Of a stretch of 64,000 bases of DNA, positions 7,957 through 62,856 are shown piece after piece; within the stretch, counting starts at the first letter, position 1, and each line of letters starts with the position of its first letter. The notes under the pieces were generated by a model. The model ran no database searches and was not told the origin of the DNA. It was given only the letters and a program-made list of their open reading frames with translations. The DNA is from Bacteroidia bacterium. GTDB lineage: Bacteria > Bacteroidota > Bacteroidia > 2-12-FULL-35-15. The position numbers and the translations under genes are program-made. The stretch is from assembly GCA_030654175.1 (NCBI GenBank), contig JAURXZ010000035.1, positions 1-64,000 on the forward strand, given 5' to 3'.

Positions 7957-10401
7957 TTAATAATAATAATCAAATTGAACTCTATCGCTCAGCAATAAAA
8001 CATACCCACCATTATTTGCAGGCACATACGTTAGAGTAGCCCCGGAAACGCTATATGCTGTATTACTTATTCTCACCCCATTGATATACATTTTCACCTT
8101 GCTGTTTGCGGATGGAGTCTGGGTTAATGTAAAGCTTGTTTGCGCTGCAGTAGGGGTAGGTTCATCCGCTACTTCTATTATTGCAGCGCGCCATACTGGT
8201 ACTACGCCTGCTCCTGCAGAAGTGAGAACCTGGCCTGATGCTCCGGCAGTGTCATTAGGCATAAGTGCCCCGCTGAATTTGATGTTTCCAACAATTTCCA
8301 ATTTCTCTGAGGGGCCTGTTGTACCAATACCAATATTGCCGCCATTATTGAATATATTGCTGCTATTCAGCACCCAGGAGGTGCCATTCCAATACGTGGT
8401 ATTTCCTGCAACGCTTCCATCACCAAGCAATCCTGTTGTTCCGGTTGCGCCAACTTCACCAGTTGAGCCTGTTGAGCCAACAGTTCCGTTTGTTCCATTG
8501 TTTCCTGTAGCTCCGGTTGAGCCTGTTGAACCATCAGTTCCATTGCTTCCGGTTGTTCCATTGCTTCCATTAGCTCCTGTTGAGCCCGTTGAACCATTGG
8601 TTCCGTCAGCGCCTGTTGCTCCTGTTGAACCGGCTGAGCCAGTTGAACCATTAGTTCCATTAGCACCAGTTGCTCCGGATGAGCCTGTTAAACCATTGGT
8701 TCCGTCAGCGCCTGTTGCTCCTGTTGAACCGGTTGAGCCAGTTGAACCATTAGTTCCATTAGCACCAGTTGCCCCGGTTGAGCCGGTTGAACCATTGGTT
8801 CCGTTTGTGCCAGTTGCTCCTATAGAGCCGTTTGTTCCGTTTGTTCCGTTTGTTCCGTTTGTTCCGTTTGTTCCATTGCTTCCATTAGCTCCTGTATTAC
8901 CTGTTGAACCATTAGTTCCATTAGCACCAGTTGCTCCGGTTGAGCCTGTTAAACCATTGGTTCCGTCAGCGCCTGTTGAACCAGTTGAGCCGGTTGAACC
9001 GTTGGTTCCATTAGTGCCTGTTCCACCAGTTGAACCTTTTGTGCCGTTTGTTCCATTGGTTCCTGCATCCCCGGTAGAGCCTGTTGAACCATTAGTGCCA
9101 TTAGCACCCGTTCCTCCTGTTGAGCCTGTTGAACCATTGGTTCCGTTTGTTCCATTGGTTCCTGCAGCTCCTGTTGAACCGGTTGTGCCATTTGTTCCAT
9201 TGATTCCATTGCTTCCGTTTGTTCCAGTATTACCTGTTGAACCGTTTGTTCCATTGGTTCCTGCAGCTCCGGTTGAGCCCGTTATACCATTAGTTCCATT
9301 GCTTCCATTTGTTCCATTAGCACCCGTTCCTCCTGTTGAGCCTGTTGAGCCTGTTGAACCGTTGGTTCCATTGCTTCCGTTTGTTCCATTAATGCCTGTT
9401 GCTCCTGTTGAACCGGTTATACCGAATGTTCCATTTGTTCCATTTGTTCCATTTGCACCAGTTGCCCCTGTTGAGCCATTAGTTCCGTTGCTTCCGTTTG
9501 TTCCATTGGTTCCTGCAGCTCCGGTTGAGCCCGTTATACCATTAGTTCCATTGTTTCCTGTGGCTCCGGTTGAGCCTGTTGAACCGTCAGTTCCATTGCT
9601 TCCGTTTGTTCCTGTAGCCCCTGTTGAGCCAGTTGAACCATCAGTTCCGTTAGTTCCATTGCTTCCGTTTGTTCCTGTAGCTCCAGTTGAGCCGAGTATA
9701 CCAGTTGAGCCGGTTCTCCCTGTAGAGCCGGTAGATCCAGTAGAACCTATTGCGCCAGTGGCACCGGTTTTCCCAGTGGAACCTGTCCTCCCGGTAACAC
9801 CTATTGATCCGGGAGAACCAGTACTCCCAATGCTGCCATTTCCACCGGTATTCCCTATTGATCCTGCTGCTCCGGTTGTACCTGTCGCTCCGGTTGGCCC
9901 CTGAGCCGAAGTATTCCCTGATGTCTCAGCATATAAAGCATAAGGGACACTCAACAATTGTTTTGTTGCACTTATACCGTAGTTTGTTCCTCCAGATGGG
10001 TCAGTTTCTGTTTTAACGAAATATGGTCCATCGGCCCAATCAATAGCCGAAAAATTGCCGCTAACCATTGTCCCATCTCCAATTTGAACTGATACCAATC
10101 CATTACCGTTTGTAGCTGCAGTGTGAGTTTCGATATATACGAGAGGCCCTGTGGCAGATCCTTGCAGAATGGTAACCCGCATACCTATAATACTATTCAC
10201 AATAAGGTTATTGTTTGAGTTGCGTATTACTGCCTGGTAGCTCATCTTTTGAGGAGCCTGGGCAAATGAATCTGCACCGTTCCAAAAGAAAAGTGAGAAA
10301 AAAACAATTGCTGTTTTAATTAAATAAACGCGCAATGAATCGCTAAAGCTTGAATCGCTGAAAAAATGTTGACTTAATGCAAGAGAATGTTTTTTTTTCA
10401 A
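7957..10401 (-). CDS. Large collagen-like protein with Gly-X-Thr/Asn repeats
   Basis: 814 residues. A long leader (1-48, ending SFAQ) is followed by a head domain (about 50-160) that starts [10 protein letters not shown] and ends [11 protein letters not shown], like the paralogue at the left edge. About 170-660 is collagen-type triplet repeat dominated by GST, GAT, GTN and GSN, so NGT/NGS recurs throughout. The C-terminus holds a short [15 protein letters not shown] segment and a beta-rich domain ending RVQFDYYY. No T9SS sorting domain is seen. The start is TTG at 10401; an in-frame TAA lies a few codons upstream and no ATG is available. It begins 12 bases after the small T9SS cargo gene. It probably forms trimeric fibres at the cell surface (inferred from collagen repeats). 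Confidence 0.85.
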
Positions 10402-45440: not shown

Positions 45441-48400
45441 TTATTTTGTTTTCACCATTTTTTTCGTTTCCACTGTTTGTCCGTCAACAATTAAAGAGTA
45501 GGTGTAAATACCATTTGACAGATCATTAGCAAATACATTTAATACACCTTTTCCTTTCTCTCTTAAATCAACTGTTTTGATGATTTTACCCGATTGCTCA
45601 AAAAACAGTATTTGTGCACGTTGAACATTATCCGGCAAATAATAAGTGATGGAGGTTTGTTCCGCGAAAGGATTTGGAACATTCTGGTCAAGCACTATTA
45701 CATTTTTATTGCTTAATTCAACATCCGTAAGCGTTGTTATGGTTTGGTCATTATTTGCCAGTAATTGCAATGAACGGTCTTCATGCGTTTTTTTGCAGCA
45801 ACTGTTTATTGCAGTCATCATTTGATTTAACTGATTTTGCATAAAAGTATTCATGGAATCAGTTTTTGTTTTCTCTGCAAGTAGTCCTTGCGATAAGTTA
45901 TTAATCGTTTGCATTTGCAACGTATTGATAGAGTCCTGATTGTTTGTTTTTATTTTCAAACTGTCATTTTCACGGCTCAACTCCTGAATAGCTTTCAACG
46001 TAATAGCTGTAAAGGCATTGTAGTTTAACACTTTGTAAGTTACTGCCGAAGTTAATAATGTTCCTGCGGTATCATAAGTAGCTGTTTTAGTTGTATTGCT
46101 AACCAATTCAGGCAGTATCTGTTCTACATCCTGTGCAATTAAGCCATACTGTTTTTGTTCGTTAAAATTCAAACCATACACGTTTGTAGTATCAAAATAG
46201 AACGAACGTGGTTTTAATTGTTTAATTAGTGATACCGCGTTAGAAATACTATCAACAGATGTTTTGAATTGCTGATCAGAGGTAAACACATTACCATTCT
46301 GATGATACGTTCCATTCACATTCACATCACCATTTACATCTAATTTATAAGCTGGGGCTGATACTCCTATGCCGACATTTGCTCCACTGCCAAGCACCAA
46401 ACTATTGCTTGCTGTAACCCATGCATTTGCGCCAATAGCAGAAGCATTAGTAAGGCCATCTATGCTGTTCGAATTGGAGCCAAGATAAGTATTGTTAATA
46501 CCGGTACTATTTGAATAACCTGTAAGATATCCTAAAGCGGTATTTTGACTTCCCGTGGTGTTATTATGAAGTGCATAAGTTCCGGTGACGGCATTTTGAT
46601 TTCCGCTGCTGTTCTCATGAAGCGCCCGATATCCTGTGGCGGTATTTTGGTTTCCATTGGAGTTATTATGAAGTGAGTAATTTCCAATGGCAGTATTTTG
46701 ATTGCCATCGGTGTTCAAAGTAAGTGCAGATTCTCCCATAGCAGCATTTTCGCTTCCGGTGATGTTGCTAAAAAGTGCAAACATCCCATTAGCGGTATTG
46801 GAGCTTCCAGTAGTATTCAGGTAAAGTGCATGCCCTCCAATAGCGGTATTACGCACACCTGAGGTATTGGAATAAAGCGCCCGAAATCCGTTACCGGTAT
46901 TATACTCACCAGTAGTATTGGCGTTAAGTGCAGACTCTCCAATGGCGGTATTCTGGCCACCTGATGTGTTGGAATAAAGCGCGCCAAATCCATTAGCTGT
47001 GTTGTAAGGTCCAGTGTTAGAGTTGCCAGCCACGTAACCATAAAAAGTACTATGTGAGGTTAAATCTATTCTTCCTGCTTTTTGATTATTTACACGAATA
47101 TTAAAAGGTACACCATCTGTAGTTCCAATAAAGTTGGTTCCATCTACGGTACCTGCATTACCAGTCCGCGACCATGCATTCTGTGCTCCATCTGCTCCGG
47201 TAGCGCCTGTTGCTCCCGTAGAACCCGTTGCACCATTTAATCCATCGGTTCCGTTAGTGCCATTAGCACCCGTTGCTCCTGTATTACCTGTTGCACCTGT
47301 AACTCCGTTTGTGCCTGCTGCCCCGGTAGCACCCGTTGCACCAACAGTTCCGTAAGTTAATATTACAGCACCACTTGAATTAAGGCTCAGCACCTTCCCA
47401 TTAGCGGAATCTGCCGTAGATGCCAAGTTTAAATTAGTGAAGGTTAAACCACTGGCATTAGCTATTCCTGAATTAATTTCTAATTTGTTGTTAGGGGTAC
47501 TTGTATTTATTCCCACATTGGTTCCATCATCTACTATCTGGCTGTTGGCAATAGTGGTACTATCAGTGAATTTTGTAAGGCTGTTCACCAAAGGAGTTCC
47601 TGCGGTAATAACTCCTTTGTTTGATACGGATGTAAGACTTGAATCAAGTTCCTGAACGGCTTTAACTAATGGGACAACAAAGGAGGAATAACTAAGCCCA
47701 TAATGATCTGCGGCATTTATAGGTTTATGAAGCCCATTAAAATCATAACCGGATTCTTGAGCAGCGCTATCTACTTCCTGGGCAATGAACCCTGTTTCTG
47801 TAGTTGCCGAAACAGCAGCTAATTGAGCGAAATACCTGTTTTTTTGTGCTACATCATTACAAGTATCCATTCGTTGTTTAATTCCCAATGATTCATCAAT
47901 CAGTTGAGCCTTAAGCTGAAAAGTAACCGGACGAAGTTTAGTAATAAAAGATAAGCCGGGAACATTTTCTTGAATGTTATCTTTAAATCTGCCATCAGAC
48001 AGGTTTTGCACGGTGCCGGATACCCAAACATTGTTATTATTTGCAGTAGTTCCTATAACAATTCTATTGGGTGCATCCGTTCTGGCATTATAACCTAAAG
48101 CCATTGCACCATTAAGGTTACCAAAACCATTAGCCATATCTGCCTGACAACCTATTGCAGTATTTTGGTTACCTGTTACATTGTTACTAAGAGAAAAATA
48201 ACCATTTGCGGTATTGCCCTGTCCTGTAGTATTCTGTAAAAGAGTAGTTTGACCGATAGCGACATTATCCTGTCCATCAGTATTTGAATGCAAGGCCCAA
48301 ACTCCAAGAGCAATATTATTGCCTCCAATGTTAGTGGGATCAGAACTAAGGTTGTTCTGTAACGCCCCTTGCCCGATAGCAATATTATTATCTGTATTAT

Positions 48401-50924
48401 TGTTTTGCAGAGCCGTCCACCCTATGGCGACATTGTAATTAGGGTAATTGCCAGGAGTGTTTATGGTGTTTTGAAGTGCCAGATACCCTATGGCAGTATT
48501 TCCAAATCCATTGCCGTTTTGAAGTGCCTGATAACCACAAGCTGTATTCAAGCCCCCTGTGGTATTTGATTGAAGAGCCTGGTATCCATTGGCGGTATTA
48601 TTGCTTCCCTGTGTATTTGATTGAAGTGCTTGAAACCCATTTGCGGTATTATAGTATCCGGTAATATTTAATGCGAGAGCCTGATATCCCGTGCCAGTAT
48701 TATAATATCCGGAAGTATTGTTTTGAAGTGCCTGCACCCCATTTGCGGTATTATAGTACCCATCAATATTTAATCCAAGAGCCTGATATCCAGTAGCGGT
48801 ATTATAATATCCGGAAGTGTTGTTTTGAAGAGCCTGAAAACCATTTGCGGTATTATAGTATCCATCAATATTTGATTGAAGTGCCTGATATCCACTGGCG
48901 GTATTATTTCTACCGGAGGTATTGGAAAATAATGCCTGATAACCAATACCGGTATTAGAGGTAGCTGTATTGCTGTTACCTGCCTGATAACCTAAGAAAG
49001 TTGGGCCAGCTTGATCTATTCTTCCTGCTTTTTGATTATTTACCCTTATATTTAAAGGTATATTGTCAATAGTGCCAATAAAATTGATTCCATCAACAGT
49101 TCCTGCATTTCCGAGAAGCGCCCAGGCATTTTGGGCGCCATCCGCACCTGTTGCGCCTATAGAACCAGTTGAACCGGTACTTCCGGCTGAACCATTAGTT
49201 CCATTTACACCTGCACTTCCGGTAGCACCGGTATTACCGGTAGAGCCCATATTACCAGTTGAACCGGTACTTCCCGTTGAACCAACACTTCCTGTAGCGC
49301 CAGTATTACCGGCAGATCCTGTGTTACCTGTTGAACCAGTACTACCTGTTGTACCGGTGGCTCCTGTAGAACCTGTAACTCCTGAACCGGCCAATCCGCC
49401 ATTTACAAGGATAACATCACCGGAATTATTTACGCTTAACACAGTACCTGATGTGTTTGCAGCTGCATCAACGAGCATCGTTGCCGTAAGGTTTGTTAAA
49501 CGTAAGCCGCTGCGGGTAGGAGCGGTAGCACTTATTGGGTTAAGTGTTGCTGGGGCAACACCTGAATTAATATCGGTTCTGTTAACTGGGGTTGTCGTAC
49601 CAATTCCCACACGACCAATAGCATCTATACGCACACGTTCAAGTGTGTTTGTGCCGTCATTAGTAAAAAAAGTCATTGGCGCATTTTCCTGCTGGATAAG
49701 CTCCGCATCGCCACTTTCGGCTATACCGACCTTAAAACCATCCGTAGCAGTGGGATTTGTAGGGGTAGGATTTGTGAAGAAATTTGTCCATTGAGTATAA
49801 ACACCCGTATTAGTTTTAGGTTCATTAATATGCAAACGCGATAGAGGCGCAAGAAAACTATCACCAATTCCAACAAATCCATTGGCAAGAATAGTTGCCA
49901 CTTGAAGATTGTTCGTTAAAAAATTCATTGACAGCAGCGGTTCCTGCTGGCGAAGTTCTGCTGTGCCATCAGCGGCAATGCCTATTTTGAAGCCATCGGT
50001 AGCAGCCGGGCTCAGTCCCCCTGAGTTATTGGTTTGAAAGTTAGTGATTTGCAGGTAAGTAGGAAATAGTCCATCGTTGAGATGTAACTGCGATTTGGGT
50101 GTAGTAAAACCATTTCCCATTCCTATTAAGCCGCTATTACCTGCAAACGCTCCATCAGTAATTACCATGCGCGTTATCGGCCCTGAACCACCAAAAAGAC
50201 TGGTGCCGGCTATATTAAAACGCATGACTGCGCCCGACTGAGTGGCTTGAAGTATTACGTCATTAGGGGTAGCTGATGTTGAAGGAGGAACTATTATACT
50301 AAATTTTTCGGAAAAACCCGCGCCTGTTCCGGTGGACATGCGCCAGGCATTAACACTACCGGCAGCGGCATTACTACTGGTACGAAATACTTCGCCTGAT
50401 GTGCTTGACTGTAAGTTCAGTACAGAGAAAAGAGCGGAAGTACCGATGCCTATATTACCGTTTTGATCTATTCGCATACGTTCAAGCGTACTTGTTCCAT
50501 TGTTGGTAAAAAAAGTCATTGGTGCATTTTCCTGTTGCCTGAATTCAGCAACTCCGACATTTGTAATGCCAATTCGCAAACCTTGATTCGCATTGTTATT
50601 GTTGGTGGTTCCGTTTGTCCATTGTGTGTATATAAAATTCGCTCCTGTTTGATGTAAATGAAAACGGCTTTGTGGTGCAGTAAAGTTATTCCCAATGCCT
50701 ATAAAACCAGCACCTACAGCTGTTCCACCGTCAGCAATAAACATACGCGGTGTGCCATTAGTAATTATGGTAATGGGCTGTGATGTTCCTAAATTTGTTC
50801 CAAATGTTGGTGCGCCTGCCGCTGGATTCCCACCTCTTAGCCAAGACTGAGCATTTAATAAATTACTAAAAAACATAAAAGCAACAACTATTGCTGCATT
50901 TAAAATTATGCGTTTTATTTTCAT
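45441..50924 (-). CDS. Giant mosaic adhesin: collagen-like, head-repeat and S74 modules with T9SS sorting domain
   Basis: 1827 residues from the ATG at 50924. Order of parts (approximate residues): signal peptide 1-26; three related ~100-residue modules up to 460 (QENAPMTFFTNNGT, DGFKIGIA); collagen-like GSTGNTG 515-590; an array of about sixteen 17-residue repeats 650-940 (NTANGYQALQSNTTG); a first S74 intramolecular-chaperone-like domain 975-1100 (SDGRFKDNIQ, GFIAQEVD); a second collagen stretch 1195-1250; a second array of about ten repeats 1300-1480; a second S74-like domain 1550-1655 (YGLIAQDVEQILPE); a coiled coil to about 1735; and a T9SS type A sorting domain (NVPNPFAEQTSITYY, LSNGIYTYSLIV). 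It is likely a trimeric surface fibre. The upstream barrel gene ends 18 bases before. Confidence 0.88.
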   Translation of the reverse strand: MKIKRIILNAAIVVAFMFFSNLLNAQSWLRGGNPAAGAPTFGTNLGTSQPITIITNGTPRMFIADGGTAVGAGFIGIGNNFTAPQSRFHLHQTGANFIYTQWTNGTTNNNNANQGLRIGITNVGVAEFRQQENAPMTFFTNNGTSTLERMRIDQNGNIGIGTSALFSVLNLQSSTSGEVFRTSSNAAAGSVNAWRMSTGTGAGFSEKFSIIVPPSTSATPNDVILQATQSGAVMRFNIAGTSLFGGSGPITRMVITDGAFAGNSGLIGMGNGFTTPKSQLHLNDGLFPTYLQITNFQTNNSGGLSPAATDGFKIGIAADGTAELRQQEPLLSMNFLTNNLQVATILANGFVGIGDSFLAPLSRLHINEPKTNTGVYTQWTNFFTNPTPTNPTATDGFKVGIAESGDAELIQQENAPMTFFTNDGTNTLERVRIDAIGRVGIGTTTPVNRTDINSGVAPATLNPISATAPTRSGLRLTNLTATMLVDAAANTSGTVLSVNNSGDVILVNGGLAGSGVTGSTGATGTTGSTGSTGNTGSAGNTGATGSVGSTGSTGSTGNMGSTGNTGATGSAGVNGTNGSAGSTGSTGSIGATGADGAQNAWALLGNAGTVDGINFIGTIDNIPLNIRVNNQKAGRIDQAGPTFLGYQAGNSNTATSNTGIGYQALFSNTSGRNNTASGYQALQSNIDGYYNTANGFQALQNNTSGYYNTATGYQALGLNIDGYYNTANGVQALQNNTSGYYNTGTGYQALALNITGYYNTANGFQALQSNTQGSNNTANGYQALQSNTTGGLNTACGYQALQNGNGFGNTAIGYLALQNTINTPGNYPNYNVAIGWTALQNNNTDNNIAIGQGALQNNLSSDPTNIGGNNIALGVWALHSNTDGQDNVAIGQTTLLQNTTGQGNTANGYFSLSNNVTGNQNTAIGCQADMANGFGNLNGAMALGYNARTDAPNRIVIGTTANNNNVWVSGTVQNLSDGRFKDNIQENVPGLSFITKLRPVTFQLKAQLIDESLGIKQRMDTCNDVAQKNRYFAQLAAVSATTETGFIAQEVDSAAQESGYDFNGLHKPINAADHYGLSYSSFVVPLVKAVQELDSSLTSVSNKGVITAGTPLVNSLTKFTDSTTIANSQIVDDGTNVGINTSTPNNKLEINSGIANASGLTFTNLNLASTADSANGKVLSLNSSGAVILTYGTVGATGATGAAGTNGVTGATGNTGATGANGTNGTDGLNGATGSTGATGATGADGAQNAWSRTGNAGTVDGTNFIGTTDGVPFNIRVNNQKAGRIDLTSHSTFYGYVAGNSNTGPYNTANGFGALYSNTSGGQNTAIGESALNANTTGEYNTGNGFRALYSNTSGVRNTAIGGHALYLNTTGSSNTANGMFALFSNITGSENAAMGESALTLNTDGNQNTAIGNYSLHNNSNGNQNTATGYRALHENSSGNQNAVTGTYALHNNTTGSQNTALGYLTGYSNSTGINNTYLGSNSNSIDGLTNASAIGANAWVTASNSLVLGSGANVGIGVSAPAYKLDVNGDVNVNGTYHQNGNVFTSDQQFKTSVDSISNAVSLIKQLKPRSFYFDTTNVYGLNFNEQKQYGLIAQDVEQILPELVSNTTKTATYDTAGTLLTSAVTYKVLNYNAFTAITLKAIQELSRENDSLKIKTNNQDSINTLQMQTINNLSQGLLAEKTKTDSMNTFMQNQLNQMMTAINSCCKKTHEDRSLQLLANNDQTITTLTDVELSNKNVIVLDQNVPNPFAEQTSITYYLPDNVQRAQILFFEQSGKIIKTVDLREKGKGVLNVFANDLSNGIYTYSLIVDGQTVETKKMVKTK
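47180..47360 (-). repeat. Second collagen-like block of the giant adhesin
   Basis: Codes for Gly-X-Y triplets such as GATGNTG and GTNGTDG. It is shorter and more Ala/Asn-rich than the first block at 49150-49380. Confidence 0.75.
48100..48970 (-). repeat. First 51-bp (17-residue) head-repeat array
   Basis: About sixteen units of the form NTAxGYQALQxNTxG. They resemble the left-handed beta-roll repeats of trimeric autotransporter heads but are 17 residues long. A second array of about ten units lies at 46480-47030. Confidence 0.8.
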
Positions 50925-50942: not shown

Positions 50943-51773
50943 TTATATTTTATTTTGTTTGTTTCCGAAATGATAAGCAATAGAAAGCATTGTTTTTACC
51001 TCATCAAATCCAATTCTTTCTATTGAATTTCGCTGTATCATCACTAAATTACCACCACTAGGCGAAGTAGTATAAAAATCCGAATAAGCATCGCCTCCAA
51101 ACTTCATATAGGTATATGAAAACGCAACTTCCGCACCTATTGAAATTCTTTTCATCACATACAAATTGCAGCCGATATAGGGACTTGCTCCAATAACAAA
51201 TCCCCCTGGAATATCCCAATTACCTTCTGAGACATCAGTGATCGTATCACGGACATTTAGAGTAGTATAATGCAAAGTAAAATGACTATAACTTGTATAT
51301 TGAAATTCCAAGCCTGCGTACGCATCAAAATTATTAAGGTGAAATGCTCTCTGAATACCAATTCCAAATCGTTGGGCTGATTGTTTTACTGTTGCAGTTC
51401 CTATATCACAAAAATTAGTCGGAAGAGCTATTCCATTAAATGTTCCTTCAGAAGTGTTATAATATTGTGTGATTTTTCTATTGTTCACTCCTGCTCTAAA
51501 ACGAAGAGTAATATTATTATTGATATTATAATGAACAATAGCTCCATAGGAAAAAAATGTTTTTTCTTTCAAATCAGTTCCGGAGTAATAGTGCCCGTCC
51601 TGAGAAATGCCGCCACCGCCAGTTGCAACAGGGTTTAGTTTTTCTGGAGAATAGCATTGTATTCCAACACTCCATTTATTTATAGTGGTAGTGTTTACCG
51701 TTTCCTGTGCAAAAGAACTATTTGCGACATAATTGAGCAAAATAAAAAATATAATTAAAAGTTGTTTTATCAT
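50943..51773 (-). CDS. Outer-membrane beta-barrel protein upstream of the giant adhesin
   Basis: 276 residues. The signal peptide ends SFAQ. The mature protein has alternating barrel-type strands (FFSYGAIVHYNINNNITLRFRAG, YAGLEFQYTSY, IGAEVAFSYTYMKF) and ends IAYHFGNKQNKI. It precedes the adhesin ATG by 18 bases, so the two are co-transcribed. The function is unknown. Its leader (bases just upstream of the ATG) is nearly identical to that of the degraded gene at 52280. Confidence 0.75.
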   Translation of the reverse strand: MIKQLLIIFFILLNYVANSSFAQETVNTTTINKWSVGIQCYSPEKLNPVATGGGGISQDGHYYSGTDLKEKTFFSYGAIVHYNINNNITLRFRAGVNNRKITQYYNTSEGTFNGIALPTNFCDIGTATVKQSAQRFGIGIQRAFHLNNFDAYAGLEFQYTSYSHFTLHYTTLNVRDTITDVSEGNWDIPGGFVIGASPYIGCNLYVMKRISIGAEVAFSYTYMKFGGDAYSDFYTTSPSGGNLVMIQRNSIERIGFDEVKTMLSIAYHFGNKQNKI

Positions 51774-51837: not shown

Positions 51838-52280
51838 TTAACAGAAAGAGCTATTCGTTAAAAAAATCATTGGTAACGCTTCCTGCTGACGAAGTTCGGC
51901 TGTTCCATTGTCGGTAATACCTATTTTGAAGCCATCGTTTGCGTCAGGGCTTAGTCCCCCAGAGTTATTGGTTTGAAATATTCGCGACCACCACCATAGG
52001 TGCCAACTAAAGCATATGCATTTCCGCTGGCCGGATATTGGTATCCCGCAGCATTTTGGGGGGCTCCAAAGGGCCAGGAAGCACAACCATTAAAATAATC
52101 GGGGGTGTATCCTGCCGAATACCATCCAGTTGCTAAGCTTATTCCACACTCTGTGCTTGGGCAACTGCTGTATTGCTCAAAACTTGGGTTGGGAACAAGG
52201 TTGGTTTGTGCATAAGTATGATGTACTTTGCAAAAAATAAAAGAAAAAATAAAGAGAAAAAAAAGTAAGAGTTTTTTCAT
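51838..52280 (-). pseudogene. Broken chimeric gene remnant
   Basis: The 5' part (52280 down to about 51975) encodes a signal peptide (MKKLLLFFLFI ... TYAQ) and the start of a surface protein (NLVPNPSFEQYSSCP, GWYSAGYTPDYFNGC, SGNAYALVGTYGGGREY). Reading then shifts frame at the junction and stops. The 3' part (about 51975-51838) encodes, in another frame, QTNNSGGLSPDANDG and TDNGTAELRQQEALP, which is a clear copy of the N-terminal module of the giant adhesin (related bases around 49915-50040). So two unrelated gene pieces have been joined out of frame. It is non-functional as a full-length protein. Confidence 0.75.
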
Positions 52281-57558: not shown

Positions 57559-60500
57559 ATGCGTATTCGCTTTTCATTAAGTTTGATTTTATTTCTCTTC
57601 ATGAGCTTTGTCGCTTTTGGGCAATCCAAATTTGTTACCCCTGCAAATTCAGGCTCGAACAAAATTGTTTGGTATGCACCATCAATCATAAAAATTTCTG
57701 ACAGCGAATCCCAACATTTTTTATCATTTAGCGGAGCTCAATATGCTTTTGAAGATGATTTTCTGCCTCGTTACAGCCAAAAAATAAAATTAACAGGCAA
57801 TGAACAAAAATTTTCTACAATAATTGTAAATCCTGTTTTTGAATCGTTAACAGATGTAGAAATATCCCTGATAAAAAATCCTGCAAAAATCGGCAACCAA
57901 ATAATTGTAAGTTCGAATGTTTTTACCTCAAAAAAGAAGTCGTATGGTGTAGTTTCATTTATTCCAATTCGTAAAAATCCAGGTACCGGAAAATTTGAAA
58001 AATTAGTATCTTTTGATCTGACCACAACAACTGAGTTCGCCCCGAAATCAGAATCCCGTGCAGTTCACACGTATGCTACTAATTCAGTTTTACAAAATGG
58101 TGCATGGTATAAAATTGGTATCCAGAATGATGGGATCTACAAACTGTCCTATACTTTTTTGCAAAACATTGGAATGGATATGACTGCAATTAATCCCCAA
58201 AATATCCGGATCTATGGTAATGGTGGAGAAATGCTTTCGGAATTAAACGCTAAATCGCGTCCTGATGATCTTGTTGAAAATGCAGTGTTTGTTCAAGGAG
58301 AGAGTGACGGAATATTTAATGAAAGTGATTATGTATTATTTTTCGGAAAAGGGCCAAATACATGGTCATACGATAGTACCTCCTGCCCGAAATTTACTCA
58401 TTCCATACATTTGTATTCCGATTCGGCTTATTATTTTATCACCGCTGATATGGGTGCAGGCAAGCGCATCCAGCCACAAGCATCATCTTCCGCAACTGCA
58501 ACGCATACTGTAAGCAGTTTTGATGATTACTCTTTTCATGAAAATTCAACAACAAATTTTATAAAATCGGGAAGACAATGGTTTGGTGAATATTTTGAGA
58601 ATACAACCTCTTATAATTTTTCCTTTTCATTTCCGAATATTGACGGAACTGTCCCTGCTACGGTAAAAACGAATATTGCATCGCGTCATTTAATTTCCGG
58701 TAATGCCACTTATTCGGTTAGCAGCCAATCAGGAAGCGGTATAATTTCTATTCCTAATGTTTCTGGCAGTGCTTATGATAATTATGCCAAAATTGTTTCC
58801 GGATGTTATTCCTTTAATCCTTCCAGTCCAACCATCACAGTAAACGTTACCAAACAAACAGCCGATGCAATAGCCTGGCTGGATTATATTGAAGTAAATG
58901 TAAGACGTCAGTTAACCATGAGTGGTTCCCAACTTATTTTCAGAGATGCTCAATCGGTTGGTACAGGCAATTTAGCTGAATATAATGTTACAAGTAATTC
59001 AGCGATCCAGATATGGGATATTTCTGATAAAGCTAATATTAAACTTCAATCAGTGATTAATCCGGTAGCAACACTCAGTCAATTTGTTTTGCCGGCTGAT
59101 TCATTAAAACAATTTATAGCATTTACAGGGTCTTCCTACCTTACACCATCTTCCTCCGGTATAGTTGCTAATCAGGATCTGCATGCCTTATCTGATAAGG
59201 ATTATATTATTGTTGCCCACCCTGATTTTTACCAGGAAGCGCTGCAACTAGCTGCTCATCATGAAAGCAAGGATGCTCTATCTACCATAGTGGTAACACC
59301 TCAGCAAATTTACAATGAATTTTCGTCAGGTTCCCAGGACATATCAGCTATCCGGGATTTTGTAAAAATGTTTTATGATAAGGCTGCAAATGCAAGTGAA
59401 ATGCCACAATATTTATTATTATTCGGAGATGGATCATACGATAATAAAAAAACTACCGGCAGCAATAGTAATTATATTCCAACCTATCAATCGGATAATT
59501 CAACAGTCCCAACATCATCATACGTATCAGATGATTTTTATGGTTTGCTTGATGATAATGAAGGTTTGTGGAACGCTGATGCAGTAGATATCGGAATTGG
59601 ACGTTTTCCGGTAAAAACAAAAGCAAGCGCACAAGCGGCAGTAAATAAAATATTAAATTACACAAAAACTGGAGTACCATTATCAGAAACTTCTACTACT
59701 TCCTGTACTGATCAAATTGCAGGCTCTCCATTTGGCAGCTGGCGTAATACAGTTTGTTTTGTTGGTGATGACGAAGATGGGGGTATACACGCATCTCAGG
59801 CTAACCAACAAGCCACTTTGGTAGATACCAGCTATAATGATTACAATATTGATAAGATCTATTTAGATGCTTATAAACAGGAAGCTACACCAGGAGGGAA
59901 CCGCTATCCTGAAGTGGTGGATGCGATCAATAAACGAATTGAGCAGGGTACCTTAATTTTAAATTACACAGGCCATGGAGGTGAATTAGGTTTAGCACAT
60001 GAACGTATCATAGAAGTTTCGCAAATAAATAAATGGAACAATGCGAATAAATTATTTTTGCTTTTTACTGCTACCTGTGAGTTTAGCCGTTATGACGATC
60101 CGGAAAGAACCTCCGCAGGAGAATATGCTTTTTTAAATCCTGATGGCGGTGCAATAGCTTTATTTAGTACTGTTCGGCTGGTATTTGCAAGTCCTAATTT
60201 TTATCTGAACCTGGATTTTTATAAAGCTGCATTCGAACCTATAAACGGAAAGATGCCACGGTTGGGTGATCTGTATGAATTTATAAAAACACAATCGGGC
60301 GGAAATTCGGTAAATAGCCGGAATTTCACATTACTTGGCGATCCGGCCTTAACATTAGCATATCCGAAATATAACGTTGCTACAGATACAGTTAATTCAG
60401 TTGCAGTTACCACCACCAGCTCAGATACATTGACGGCTCTTTCCATTGTTACCATTAGCGGGCATGTACAAGACAATTCAGGCACTATATTACCTGGCTA

Positions 60501-61455
60501 TAACGGGATCTTATACCCTACTGTTTATGACAAATCCCAAGATGTAACCACCTTATCAAATGATGGATCAGCAAGCCCGGCTTATACTTTTAAACTTCAA
60601 AAAAATATTTTGTATAAAGGGAAAGTAAGTGTGACCAATGGCTATTTTAAATTTTCATTTATCATTCCAAAAGATATCGCCTATCAATATGGTGTTGGCC
60701 GTGTAAGCTATTATGCCGAAAACGGGAACGAGGATGCAATAGGTAATTATGAAAAAATAATTATTGGAGGATCCAATAATAGCGCTCCTGCTGATGCTGT
60801 TGGACCTGAAGTAAGTTTATATCTGAATGATATTAAATTTGTATTTGGAGGCACAACCAATGAAAACCCTGATCTGTATTCCATTTTGAAAGATGAAAAT
60901 GGGATCAATACTGTTGGAAATGGGATAGGACACGACATCATTGCTACATTGGATGCTAATACTGAAAAAGCGATCGTGTTAAATGATTATTACCAATCTG
61001 ACCTAAATAGTTATAAAAGCGGAAAAATACGATATCCTTTAGCGGATATAAGTGAGGGAAAACATACTTTAAAATTAAAAGTGTGGGATGTTTATAATAA
61101 TTCATCTGAATCCTATACCGAATTTGTTGTTGCCAAATCGGCCGAATTGGCTTTGAGCCATGTATTAAATTACCCAAATCCTTTTACAACCAGAACACAA
61201 TTTTATTTTGAGCACAACCAGGCCTGTGATCAGTTGGAGGTTCAGATCCAGGTATTTACAGTGTCGGGTAAACTGGTAAAAAGCATTAATCAGTTCGTAC
61301 ATTCGGAAGGTTTCCGGTCAGAACCAATTGAATGGAATGGCCGTGATGATTTTGGTGATAAAATAGGCAGAGGGGTTTACCTGTATCGTGTTAAAGTAAA
61401 AACAAGTGACGGTGCAGCTGCAGAGAAATATGAGAAACTTGTAATTTTAAATTAA
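57559..61455 (+). CDS. porU: T9SS signal peptidase PorU (C25 gingipain family)
   Basis: 1298 residues, in the range of PorU. The signal peptide ends AFGQ. The C25 peptidase domain spans about 530-950: LLLFGDGSYDN, IGIGRFPVK, the catalytic His in NYTGHGGE near 804 and the catalytic Cys in TATCEFSR near 840. The C-terminus is a T9SS-like sorting domain (NYPNPFTTRTQFYFEHN, GRGVYLYRVKV). PorU cleaves sorting domains from cargo at the cell surface and stays bound to PorV. Its cargo here would include the proteins at 10.4, 20.2 and 45.4 kb. porV follows 138 bases after the stop. Confidence 0.95.
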   Translation: MRIRFSLSLILFLFMSFVAFGQSKFVTPANSGSNKIVWYAPSIIKISDSESQHFLSFSGAQYAFEDDFLPRYSQKIKLTGNEQKFSTIIVNPVFESLTDVEISLIKNPAKIGNQIIVSSNVFTSKKKSYGVVSFIPIRKNPGTGKFEKLVSFDLTTTTEFAPKSESRAVHTYATNSVLQNGAWYKIGIQNDGIYKLSYTFLQNIGMDMTAINPQNIRIYGNGGEMLSELNAKSRPDDLVENAVFVQGESDGIFNESDYVLFFGKGPNTWSYDSTSCPKFTHSIHLYSDSAYYFITADMGAGKRIQPQASSSATATHTVSSFDDYSFHENSTTNFIKSGRQWFGEYFENTTSYNFSFSFPNIDGTVPATVKTNIASRHLISGNATYSVSSQSGSGIISIPNVSGSAYDNYAKIVSGCYSFNPSSPTITVNVTKQTADAIAWLDYIEVNVRRQLTMSGSQLIFRDAQSVGTGNLAEYNVTSNSAIQIWDISDKANIKLQSVINPVATLSQFVLPADSLKQFIAFTGSSYLTPSSSGIVANQDLHALSDKDYIIVAHPDFYQEALQLAAHHESKDALSTIVVTPQQIYNEFSSGSQDISAIRDFVKMFYDKAANASEMPQYLLLFGDGSYDNKKTTGSNSNYIPTYQSDNSTVPTSSYVSDDFYGLLDDNEGLWNADAVDIGIGRFPVKTKASAQAAVNKILNYTKTGVPLSETSTTSCTDQIAGSPFGSWRNTVCFVGDDEDGGIHASQANQQATLVDTSYNDYNIDKIYLDAYKQEATPGGNRYPEVVDAINKRIEQGTLILNYTGHGGELGLAHERIIEVSQINKWNNANKLFLLFTATCEFSRYDDPERTSAGEYAFLNPDGGAIALFSTVRLVFASPNFYLNLDFYKAAFEPINGKMPRLGDLYEFIKTQSGGNSVNSRNFTLLGDPALTLAYPKYNVATDTVNSVAVTTTSSDTLTALSIVTISGHVQDNSGTILPGYNGILYPTVYDKSQDVTTLSNDGSASPAYTFKLQKNILYKGKVSVTNGYFKFSFIIPKDIAYQYGVGRVSYYAENGNEDAIGNYEKIIIGGSNNSAPADAVGPEVSLYLNDIKFVFGGTTNENPDLYSILKDENGINTVGNGIGHDIIATLDANTEKAIVLNDYYQSDLNSYKSGKIRYPLADISEGKHTLKLKVWDVYNNSSESYTEFVVAKSAELALSHVLNYPNPFTTRTQFYFEHNQACDQLEVQIQVFTVSGKLVKSINQFVHSEGFRSEPIEWNGRDDFGDKIGRGVYLYRVKVKTSDGAAAEKYEKLVILN

Positions 61456-61575
61456 TTAGTACTTTAGCAATCCCAAAAAAGGACTGGCATACTATTTTAT
61501 ATAATTATAACGTTAGACGATGTCTTTCATTAATAAAAAAAAATTCAGATGAATTATTTAAAAGTAATCCCACTG

Positions 61576-61593
61576 CCCGCTATAAAAAGCGGG
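61576..61593 (+). repeat. GC-rich hairpin abutting the porV start
   Basis: CCCGCT and AGCGGG form a 6-bp stem with a six-base loop ending directly before ATG 61594. If translation starts there, the stem covers the ribosome-binding region. A similar hairpin lies at 4579-4594. Confidence 0.5.
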
Positions 61594-62856
61594 ATGAACA
61601 AAAAAAATATAGCGGCCTTATCACTGATTTTATTGGGTATTAATTACTCTTTTTCACAGATCAATTACAATCAAATTTCCGGTCAGGAGTTAGATAGCCG
61701 CCTCAATACAATTACTACTGCTGTGCCATTTTTATTGATATCACCCGATTCAAGAGCAGGCGGGATGGGAGATGCAGGCTGTGCTTCATCAACTGATGTA
61801 AACTCTATTCATTGGAATCCTGCTAAATTAGGTTTTGCCGATAAACAAATGGGTATAGGTGTTTCATACACCCCATGGTTAAGAGCCCTTGTTCCTGACA
61901 TCAACCTTGCTTATTTATCCGGTTATTATAAAACTAAAAAAAGTGGAACTATTGGAGCTTCGTTACGTTATTTCTCTTTGGGGGACATTACATTTACGGA
62001 TATCAATGGTAATACAACAGGGCAGTTTCGTCCAAATGAATTTGCAATTGATGTAGCTTATGCAACCAAATTAGGTAAAAACTTTTCGGCAGGTGGGGCT
62101 GCACGTTATATCAATTCAAATTTAACAGGTGGCACCTTTGTAGATGGTTCTGCAACACGCCCTGGGCGTTCTTTTGCTGTGGATATTTCCGGCTTGTATA
62201 AAGTGGATAAAATTAAGCTTGGCGATAAAAAAGCGATTGCAGCAGTAGGTTTGAATATTTCGAATATTGGAGCTAAAATGTCGTATTCCGATAGAGGCGG
62301 GAAAAATAATTCTGATTTCATTCCAATCAATATGCGTTTAGGAGGTTCCCTATCTATCAATATTGATGATTTTAACAGTATAGTTTTTGTTGCTGATGTT
62401 AATAAATTATTGGTACCAACCCCTCCAATCTATAAACAAAAAATAAATTCAATCACAGGAAAACCCGATGGTGTAGAGTACGATGCAAATGGTGATCCCA
62501 TCATCCTTAAAGGCAAAGATCCAAGAAGAGGGGTTGCAGAAGGTATTTTAGGATCCTTTAGCGATGCACCTGGTGGAGGCAAAGAAGAGTTAAGAGAACT
62601 TAATTATTCAGCAGGAATGGAGTATTGGTATAATAAATTATTCGCCATCCGTTTAGGATATTTTTATGAGCATCCTACAAAAGGAAACCGTCAATATTTT
62701 ACATTGGGGGCAGGAGTTAAATACAATGTGTTCGGTTTGGATTTTGCTTACCTTATTCCAACGCAACAGCGAAACCCACTTGAGAACACCTTAAGATTTT
62801 CACTTACTTTTGATTTTGATGCATTTAAAGCTCAAAATGATGCACCTGCGGAATAA
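61594..62856 (+). CDS. porV: T9SS outer-membrane protein PorV (LptO)
   Basis: About 420 residues from the ATG at 61594, where a good signal peptide begins (MNKKNIAALSLILL, ending SFSQ); the alternative ATG 15 codons upstream reads through a hairpin repeat. AVPFLLISPDSRAGGMGDAG is the conserved PorV N-terminus, and the body is a FadL-like barrel (WNPAKLGF, GASLRYFSLG, ending LRFSLTFDFDAF). PorV shuttles cargo from the translocon to the PorU-containing attachment complex. The porU-porV order is as in Flavobacterium and Porphyromonas relatives. Confidence 0.93.
   Translation: MNKKNIAALSLILLGINYSFSQINYNQISGQELDSRLNTITTAVPFLLISPDSRAGGMGDAGCASSTDVNSIHWNPAKLGFADKQMGIGVSYTPWLRALVPDINLAYLSGYYKTKKSGTIGASLRYFSLGDITFTDINGNTTGQFRPNEFAIDVAYATKLGKNFSAGGAARYINSNLTGGTFVDGSATRPGRSFAVDISGLYKVDKIKLGDKKAIAAVGLNISNIGAKMSYSDRGGKNNSDFIPINMRLGGSLSINIDDFNSIVFVADVNKLLVPTPPIYKQKINSITGKPDGVEYDANGDPIILKGKDPRRGVAEGILGSFSDAPGGGKEELRELNYSAGMEYWYNKLFAIRLGYFYEHPTKGNRQYFTLGAGVKYNVFGLDFAYLIPTQQRNPLENTLRFSLTFDFDAFKAQNDAPAE

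Follow-up and report, generated by a model that had tools for sequence, protein, structure and literature searches.

S74 domains are known as removable C-terminal chaperones of the fibres of phages and predatory bacteria and, in MyRF, as an internal domain. In phage endoNF, the T5 L-shaped tail fibre and the GA-1/phi29-type neck appendage, the S74 domain ends the chain and the N-terminus sits on the virion, such that cutting exposes the tip rather than detaching the fibre. In MyRF, a eukaryotic membrane transcription factor with one intramolecular chaperone autocleavage (ICA) domain, the domain is internal, the C-terminal part of the protein is held and the cut frees an N-terminal trimer; MyRF is cleaved only as a trimer, and mutating either the Ser or the Lys of its catalytic dyad abolishes cutting (PMC8326128). 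Among bacteria, the mosaic adhesive trimeric (MAT) proteins of Bdellovibrio are trimeric phage-like fibres with a signal peptide, a conserved beta-rich domain of ~130 aa following it and, at the end of the chain, an S74 or other tip domain; those of the S74 group have a single S74 in this position. Self-cleavage of one of these, Bd3182, occurs at the Ser of its SDxxxK motif, and no T9SS tail has been reported for the group (PMC10769870).

The window analysed here is a 64,000-nt stretch of genomic DNA from a Bacteroidia bacterium (contig JAURXZ010000035.1), in which the gene at 45441-50924 encodes a protein whose layout resembles two phage tail fibres joined in series, both equipped with a self-cutting domain of their own, followed by an export tag. 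With the phage proteins it shares the S74 fold, the catalytic pair and the position of the fibre or tip N-terminal to S74; with MyRF, the internal placement of the domain and the same Ser-Lys dyad; and with the MAT group, a bacterial origin, a signal peptide, the SDxxxK motif and a predicted trimeric, phage-like form. However, in contrast to the MAT proteins, it carries two internal S74 domains and a sorting domain, and the chain does not end in a tip domain but continues for 169 residues, including the T9SS tail, after the second S74 (S74_2). Single-S74 fibres of Bacteroidota, represented in the source genome by L013, L016 and L017, belong to the same S74 clades and also have a T9SS tail, but hold one S74 per chain; these are presumably the proteins that NCBI names 'tail fiber domain-containing protein', and L016 and L017 bear the same kind of head repeats as the dual-S74 fibre. 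We found no description of S74/T9SS proteins of this kind in the open-access literature, which is weak evidence of novelty.

Layout and surroundings of the fibre gene

The features of the fibre gene, together with the two T9SS genes identified by family models in the window, are as follows.

45441-50924, minus strand: dual-S74 fibre gene, an uninterrupted ORF of 1827 aa with an ATG start
50847-50924, minus strand: putative signal peptide MKIKRIILNAAIVVAFMFFSNLLNAQ, residues 1-26, judged by eye from the sequence
49389-50846, minus strand: N-terminal stalk with recurring G-V/I-G-I-G motifs, residues 27-512
49131-49382, minus strand: collagen block 1, residues 515-598, 28 Gly-X-Y triplets (PF01391)
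49005-49130, minus strand: connector 1 (AWALLGNAGTVDGINFIGT...QKAGRID), residues 599-640, 72 % identical to connector 2
48105-49004, minus strand: head array 1, residues 641-940, 17-aa repeats NTAxGxQALxxNTxGxx, with PHROG tail-spike/virion matches
47619-47999, minus strand: S74 domain 1 (S74_1), long-insert type, residues 976-1102 (Pfam, AlphaFold, Foldseek)
47982-47999, minus strand: predicted cut site 1, between Leu975 and Ser976, and catalytic pair Ser976-DGRF-Lys981, by homology to MyRF S587/K592 (PMC8326128)
47352-47618, minus strand: candidate fusion linker (stalk 2), residues 1103-1191, with 70 % identity in genus genome G021 and 63 % in G019
47181-47351, minus strand: collagen block 2, residues 1192-1248, 19 Gly-X-Y triplets (Pfam)
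47055-47180, minus strand: connector 2, residues 1249-1290
46410-47054, minus strand: head array 2, residues 1291-1505, 17-aa repeats
45951-46280, minus strand: S74 domain 2 (S74_2), short T9SS-linked type, residues 1549-1658 (Pfam, AlphaFold, Foldseek)
46263-46280, minus strand: predicted cut site 2, between Thr1548 and Ser1549, and catalytic pair Ser1549-DQQF-Lys1554, by sequence alignment
45762-46022, minus strand: long helix of ~87 residues, probable coiled coil, residues 1635-1721, overlapping the end of S74_2 (AlphaFold model)
45444-45710, minus strand: T9SS type A sorting domain, residues 1739-1827 (TIGR04183, 26.2 bits against a cut-off of 23; fold match)
57559-61455, plus strand: PorU, T9SS sortase (NF033707, 1367 bits)
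61549-62856, plus strand: PorV, T9SS (NF033710, 487 bits)

Read from the N-terminus, the order is signal peptide, stalk, collagen, array, S74, stalk, collagen, array, S74, coiled coil and T9SS tail. A first-pass annotation of this DNA had described an array-S74-collagen-array-S74 pattern; the cassette-like order holds, and both head arrays are present as 17-aa repeats along with two collagen blocks, but collagen block 1, which lies before array 1, had been overlooked. With this block included, both cassettes share the order stalk-collagen-array-S74. A Pfam scan extended to E = 1 returned no family for the YadA head or anchor domains of trimeric autotransporter adhesins, and the repeat of the fibre is 17 aa long. 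The T9SS tail of the same annotation was likewise recovered: TIGR04183 exceeds its cut-off when the scan is restricted to the last 119 aa (it is absent from the matches of the whole-protein scan), and the modelled tail matches, alongside numerous other proteins of the beta-sandwich type, the sorting domains of PorU and mirolase and substrate chains of T9SS complexes.

The arrays and S74 regions match tail-spike, tail-fibre and virion families in PHROGs, as would be expected if the gene were the tail fibre gene of a prophage or tailocin residing in the chromosome. However, housekeeping and T9SS genes surround it in the window, with no phage structural gene neighbourhood: a GldJ-like lipoprotein, a PorP/SprF family protein, PorU and PorV are encoded between 54495 and 62856, none of them more than 12 kb from the fibre gene, and other neighbours encode CTP synthase (by sequence) and DAHP synthase/chorismate mutase. 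The chain itself combines a signal peptide with a T9SS sorting domain, and none of 118 viral S74 ORFs is dual; their S74 lies near the C-terminus, with at most 62 residues after the domain in those with a readable end. We therefore rejected a phage origin for the gene as it stands, on account of its neighbourhood and T9SS tail, and consider it highly improbable.

Immediately upstream of the fibre gene, at a distance of 18 bp, ends a minus-strand gene (50943-51773) for a 276-aa outer-membrane beta-barrel-like protein, to which PF13505 matches below its cut-off; the two genes may be co-transcribed. Further upstream, positions 51854-51978 of the minus strand match positions 886-1013 of the fibre gene (128 columns, 83 % identity) and join the end of a truncated 109-aa ORF (51951-52280); this remnant is probably a recombination scar. 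Elsewhere in the window, positions 1-1200 and 8480-9750 consist of long tandem repeats with periods that are multiples of 9 bp, resembling collagen-type coding repeats.

The two S74 domains and their Ser-Lys pairs

Both domains are confirmed as genuine S74/ICA domains, in agreement with the two internal copies claimed at first pass. PF13884 matches the fibre twice (whole protein 1.1e-20 in the Pfam scan; S74_1 3.9e-12 and S74_2 2.2e-8 in the genome search; 49.0 and 36.5 bits against a cut-off of 22). A profile built from ten S74 domains, all from the source genome, retrieved from the PDB a T-even-type phage long tail fibre distal subunit (6f45, E value 2.3e-10), MyRF (7dc3, 7e-9) and another tail fibre (8jov, 9.4e-7), as well as the neck appendage 3gud and the T5-type L-shaped fibre 8hqz. 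AlphaFold monomer models were obtained for residues 930-1195 and 1500-1827, with relatives from viral and genome contigs, and pLDDT was mostly >90 within the S74 parts of both. Foldseek ranked MyRF (7dc3), 3gud and the endosialidase 3gw6 at the top for each model. Re-alignment using VIA-align gave Z scores of 7.7 (3gw6), 6.7 (7dc3), 6.0 (T5, 4uw8) and 5.8 (3gud) for S74_1, and of 7.7 (7dc3) and 7.2 (3gud) for S74_2; these values are moderate throughout, although for S74_1 the ICA structures outrank all unrelated matches. Sequence and fold thus agree for both domains, and neither is merely a fibre-like repeat.

Inspection of the Ser and adjacent residues at the two cleavage sites, as the first-pass annotation had proposed, revealed an intact Ser-x4-Lys pair in each domain. 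SDGRFK at residue 976 and SDQQFK at residue 1549 place Ser first and Lys sixth in SDxxxK, the same five-place spacing as in MyRF (S587/K592) and endoNF (S911/K916) (PMC8326128). Neither residue varies in two alignments, one of 45 and one of 39 S74 domains; in the latter, with a mean column identity of 18 %, the only invariant columns are the Ser, the Lys and one Gly. Among 64 bacterial domains sampled, the dyad is intact in 25/25 from T9SS-tailed ORFs and 39/39 from untailed ORFs, and it is also intact in all 18 S74 domains of nine dual-S74 proteins, counts that are biased somewhat upward since the PF13884 search profile includes the Ser and Lys positions. In the T9SS-linked clade, the Arg of SDxRxK is often lost beside a retained Ser and Lys, suggesting that the motif is not simply preserved as a block.

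This conservation bears on whether the domains cut at all. The S74 domains could act solely as trimerisation and registration modules in one whole, C-terminally anchored adhesin in which self-cleavage is sluggish, inhibited or lacking: a chain of this length, with its two collagen blocks, would plausibly require at least two sites at which trimers nucleate, each cassette has one S74, a long helix follows S74_2, and the C-terminal sorting domain would, together with PorU and PorV, permit anchoring. However, a chaperone-only role would need neither Ser nor Lys, and their retention in every sampled bacterial domain, dual proteins included, while the neighbouring Arg is frequently lost, counts against such an adhesin, which we regard as unlikely though by no means negligible.

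Relationship of the two cassettes and distribution of dual-S74 proteins

The fibre had been thought to contain a duplicated cassette. Collagen, connector and array do recur in the same order, and their DNA is ~66 % identical between the two cassettes across 579 bp; however, S74_1 and S74_2 share 24 % identity and fall in separate clades. The nearest paralog of S74_1 is the long-insert L017 (44 %), while that of S74_2 is the T9SS-linked L013 (59 %). A tree of 64 S74 domains places S74_1 of the three dual proteins from the genus inside a 29-member clade (support 100/99) and their S74_2 inside a ten-member clade (99/89) whose members are nearly all T9SS-tailed; both clades include single-S74 relatives from the genus. 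Simple tandem duplication is ruled out by this placement; rather, with similar repeat modules but S74 domains of separate clades, the chain appears to have arisen by the joining of two distinct fibre cassettes that share those modules. Judged from sequence divergence, this fusion is not recent.

A recent tandem duplication or an assembly join, leaving the second S74 functionless, might be entertained on account of the 128-bp remnant of the N-terminal part of the fibre gene just upstream, which indicates that recombination occurs here. We give this very little credence, as the S74 domains are too unlike and belong to different clades, the DNA of the cassettes is only 66 % identical, and the linker recurs in two other genomes (70 and 63 % identity).

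The source genome contains ten S74 matches in nine ORFs, with two per chain only in the fibre described here. Our survey of the genus covered 36 genomes (for the 31 others with any PF13884 match, every match was tabulated), and the same linker and domain order was present in three: the source genome, G019 and G021. No further genome among the 36 had the linker region above 53 % identity. Synteny with the fibre locus does not extend to G019, where an L-aspartate oxidase-like gene (by sequence) comes after the dual gene. The fusion in the genus may have arisen once, with S74_1 exchanged later: the shared linker favours a single origin, but S74_1 of G021 groups elsewhere in the tree.

Four further families of the class also have double-S74 proteins (genomes G042, G093, G050, G091 and G067), bringing the number to nine. 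The dual ORFs of G042 and G093 consist of S74, a FnIII-like spacer (by eye), S74 and a T9SS tail, while the two from G067 both run off contig ends; in the latter (L241 and L242), the S74 domains are a few residues apart (L242: 723-829 and 832-888). A T9SS tail ends every one of the seven dual proteins whose C-terminus could be read. In the tree, the S74 domains of the dual proteins from G042 and G050 lie away from those of the genus, suggesting that dual S74 originated more than once.

S74 placed internally before a T9SS tail had seemed an oddity at first pass, but this arrangement is not exceptional in the group, being found in 15/54 single-S74 ORFs sampled; the unusual feature is the presence of two S74 domains in one chain. 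The 54 ORFs are a partly hand-picked sample; hence, the association of dual S74 with T9SS is suggestive only. A contig scan using the C-terminal half of the fibre returned six loci, three of which had S74 ORFs (five in total), every one of them single-S74. Two S74 fibres, L012 and L014 (G000:C6 near 87509 and G000:C16 near 17656), carry very long collagen-like tracts and no T9SS tail.

Export and a proposed route of self-cleavage

Beyond the PorU and PorV genes of the window, the source genome encodes SprA and yields at least 150 TIGR04183 matches. The domains, their fold, the intact dyads, the conserved architecture and these T9SS genes are established by computation, and from them we infer export, trimerisation, actual cutting and its timing, and an adhesive role for the fibre. 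The reading we favour, and hold to be reasonably probable, is that the gene encodes a trimeric, phage-fibre-like bacterial fibre, surface-located or extracellular, which comprises two fused cassettes, is exported by the T9SS and cuts itself outside the cell.

Under this scheme, the S74 of each cassette would trimerise and register the part N-terminal to it. Chains would cross SprA singly, confining trimerisation, and hence cutting, to the outside; as S74 cleaves only as a trimer, the predicted order is export, trimerisation outside and then cutting before Ser976 and Ser1549, with residues 27-975, 976-1548 and 1549-1827 as products. Trimerisation restricted to the outside would make a self-cutting domain compatible with a downstream export tag. 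That export precedes cutting is assumed for this fibre; a periplasmic cut upstream of the tag would be harmful. The export tag is at the C-terminus and, if the cell holds this tag, cleavage on its N-terminal side would separate the fibre from both the tag and any anchor, a topology like that of MyRF. The cut pieces could nevertheless remain together non-covalently.

More tentatively, and as something possible rather than probable, the fibre may be a secreted poly-fibre precursor in which the two S74 cuts yield two mature fibres and a tag-bearing remnant, a scheme that would have arisen more than once in the class. If true, folding quality control, release and export tagging would be coupled in one chain. 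The predicted cut sites and fragments are specific enough for direct testing. The locus also raises the question of whether T9SS cargo trimerises before or after the outer membrane, and whether a self-cutting domain can time its release, and it suggests that bacterial fibres may be built through the joining of different phage-like cassettes.
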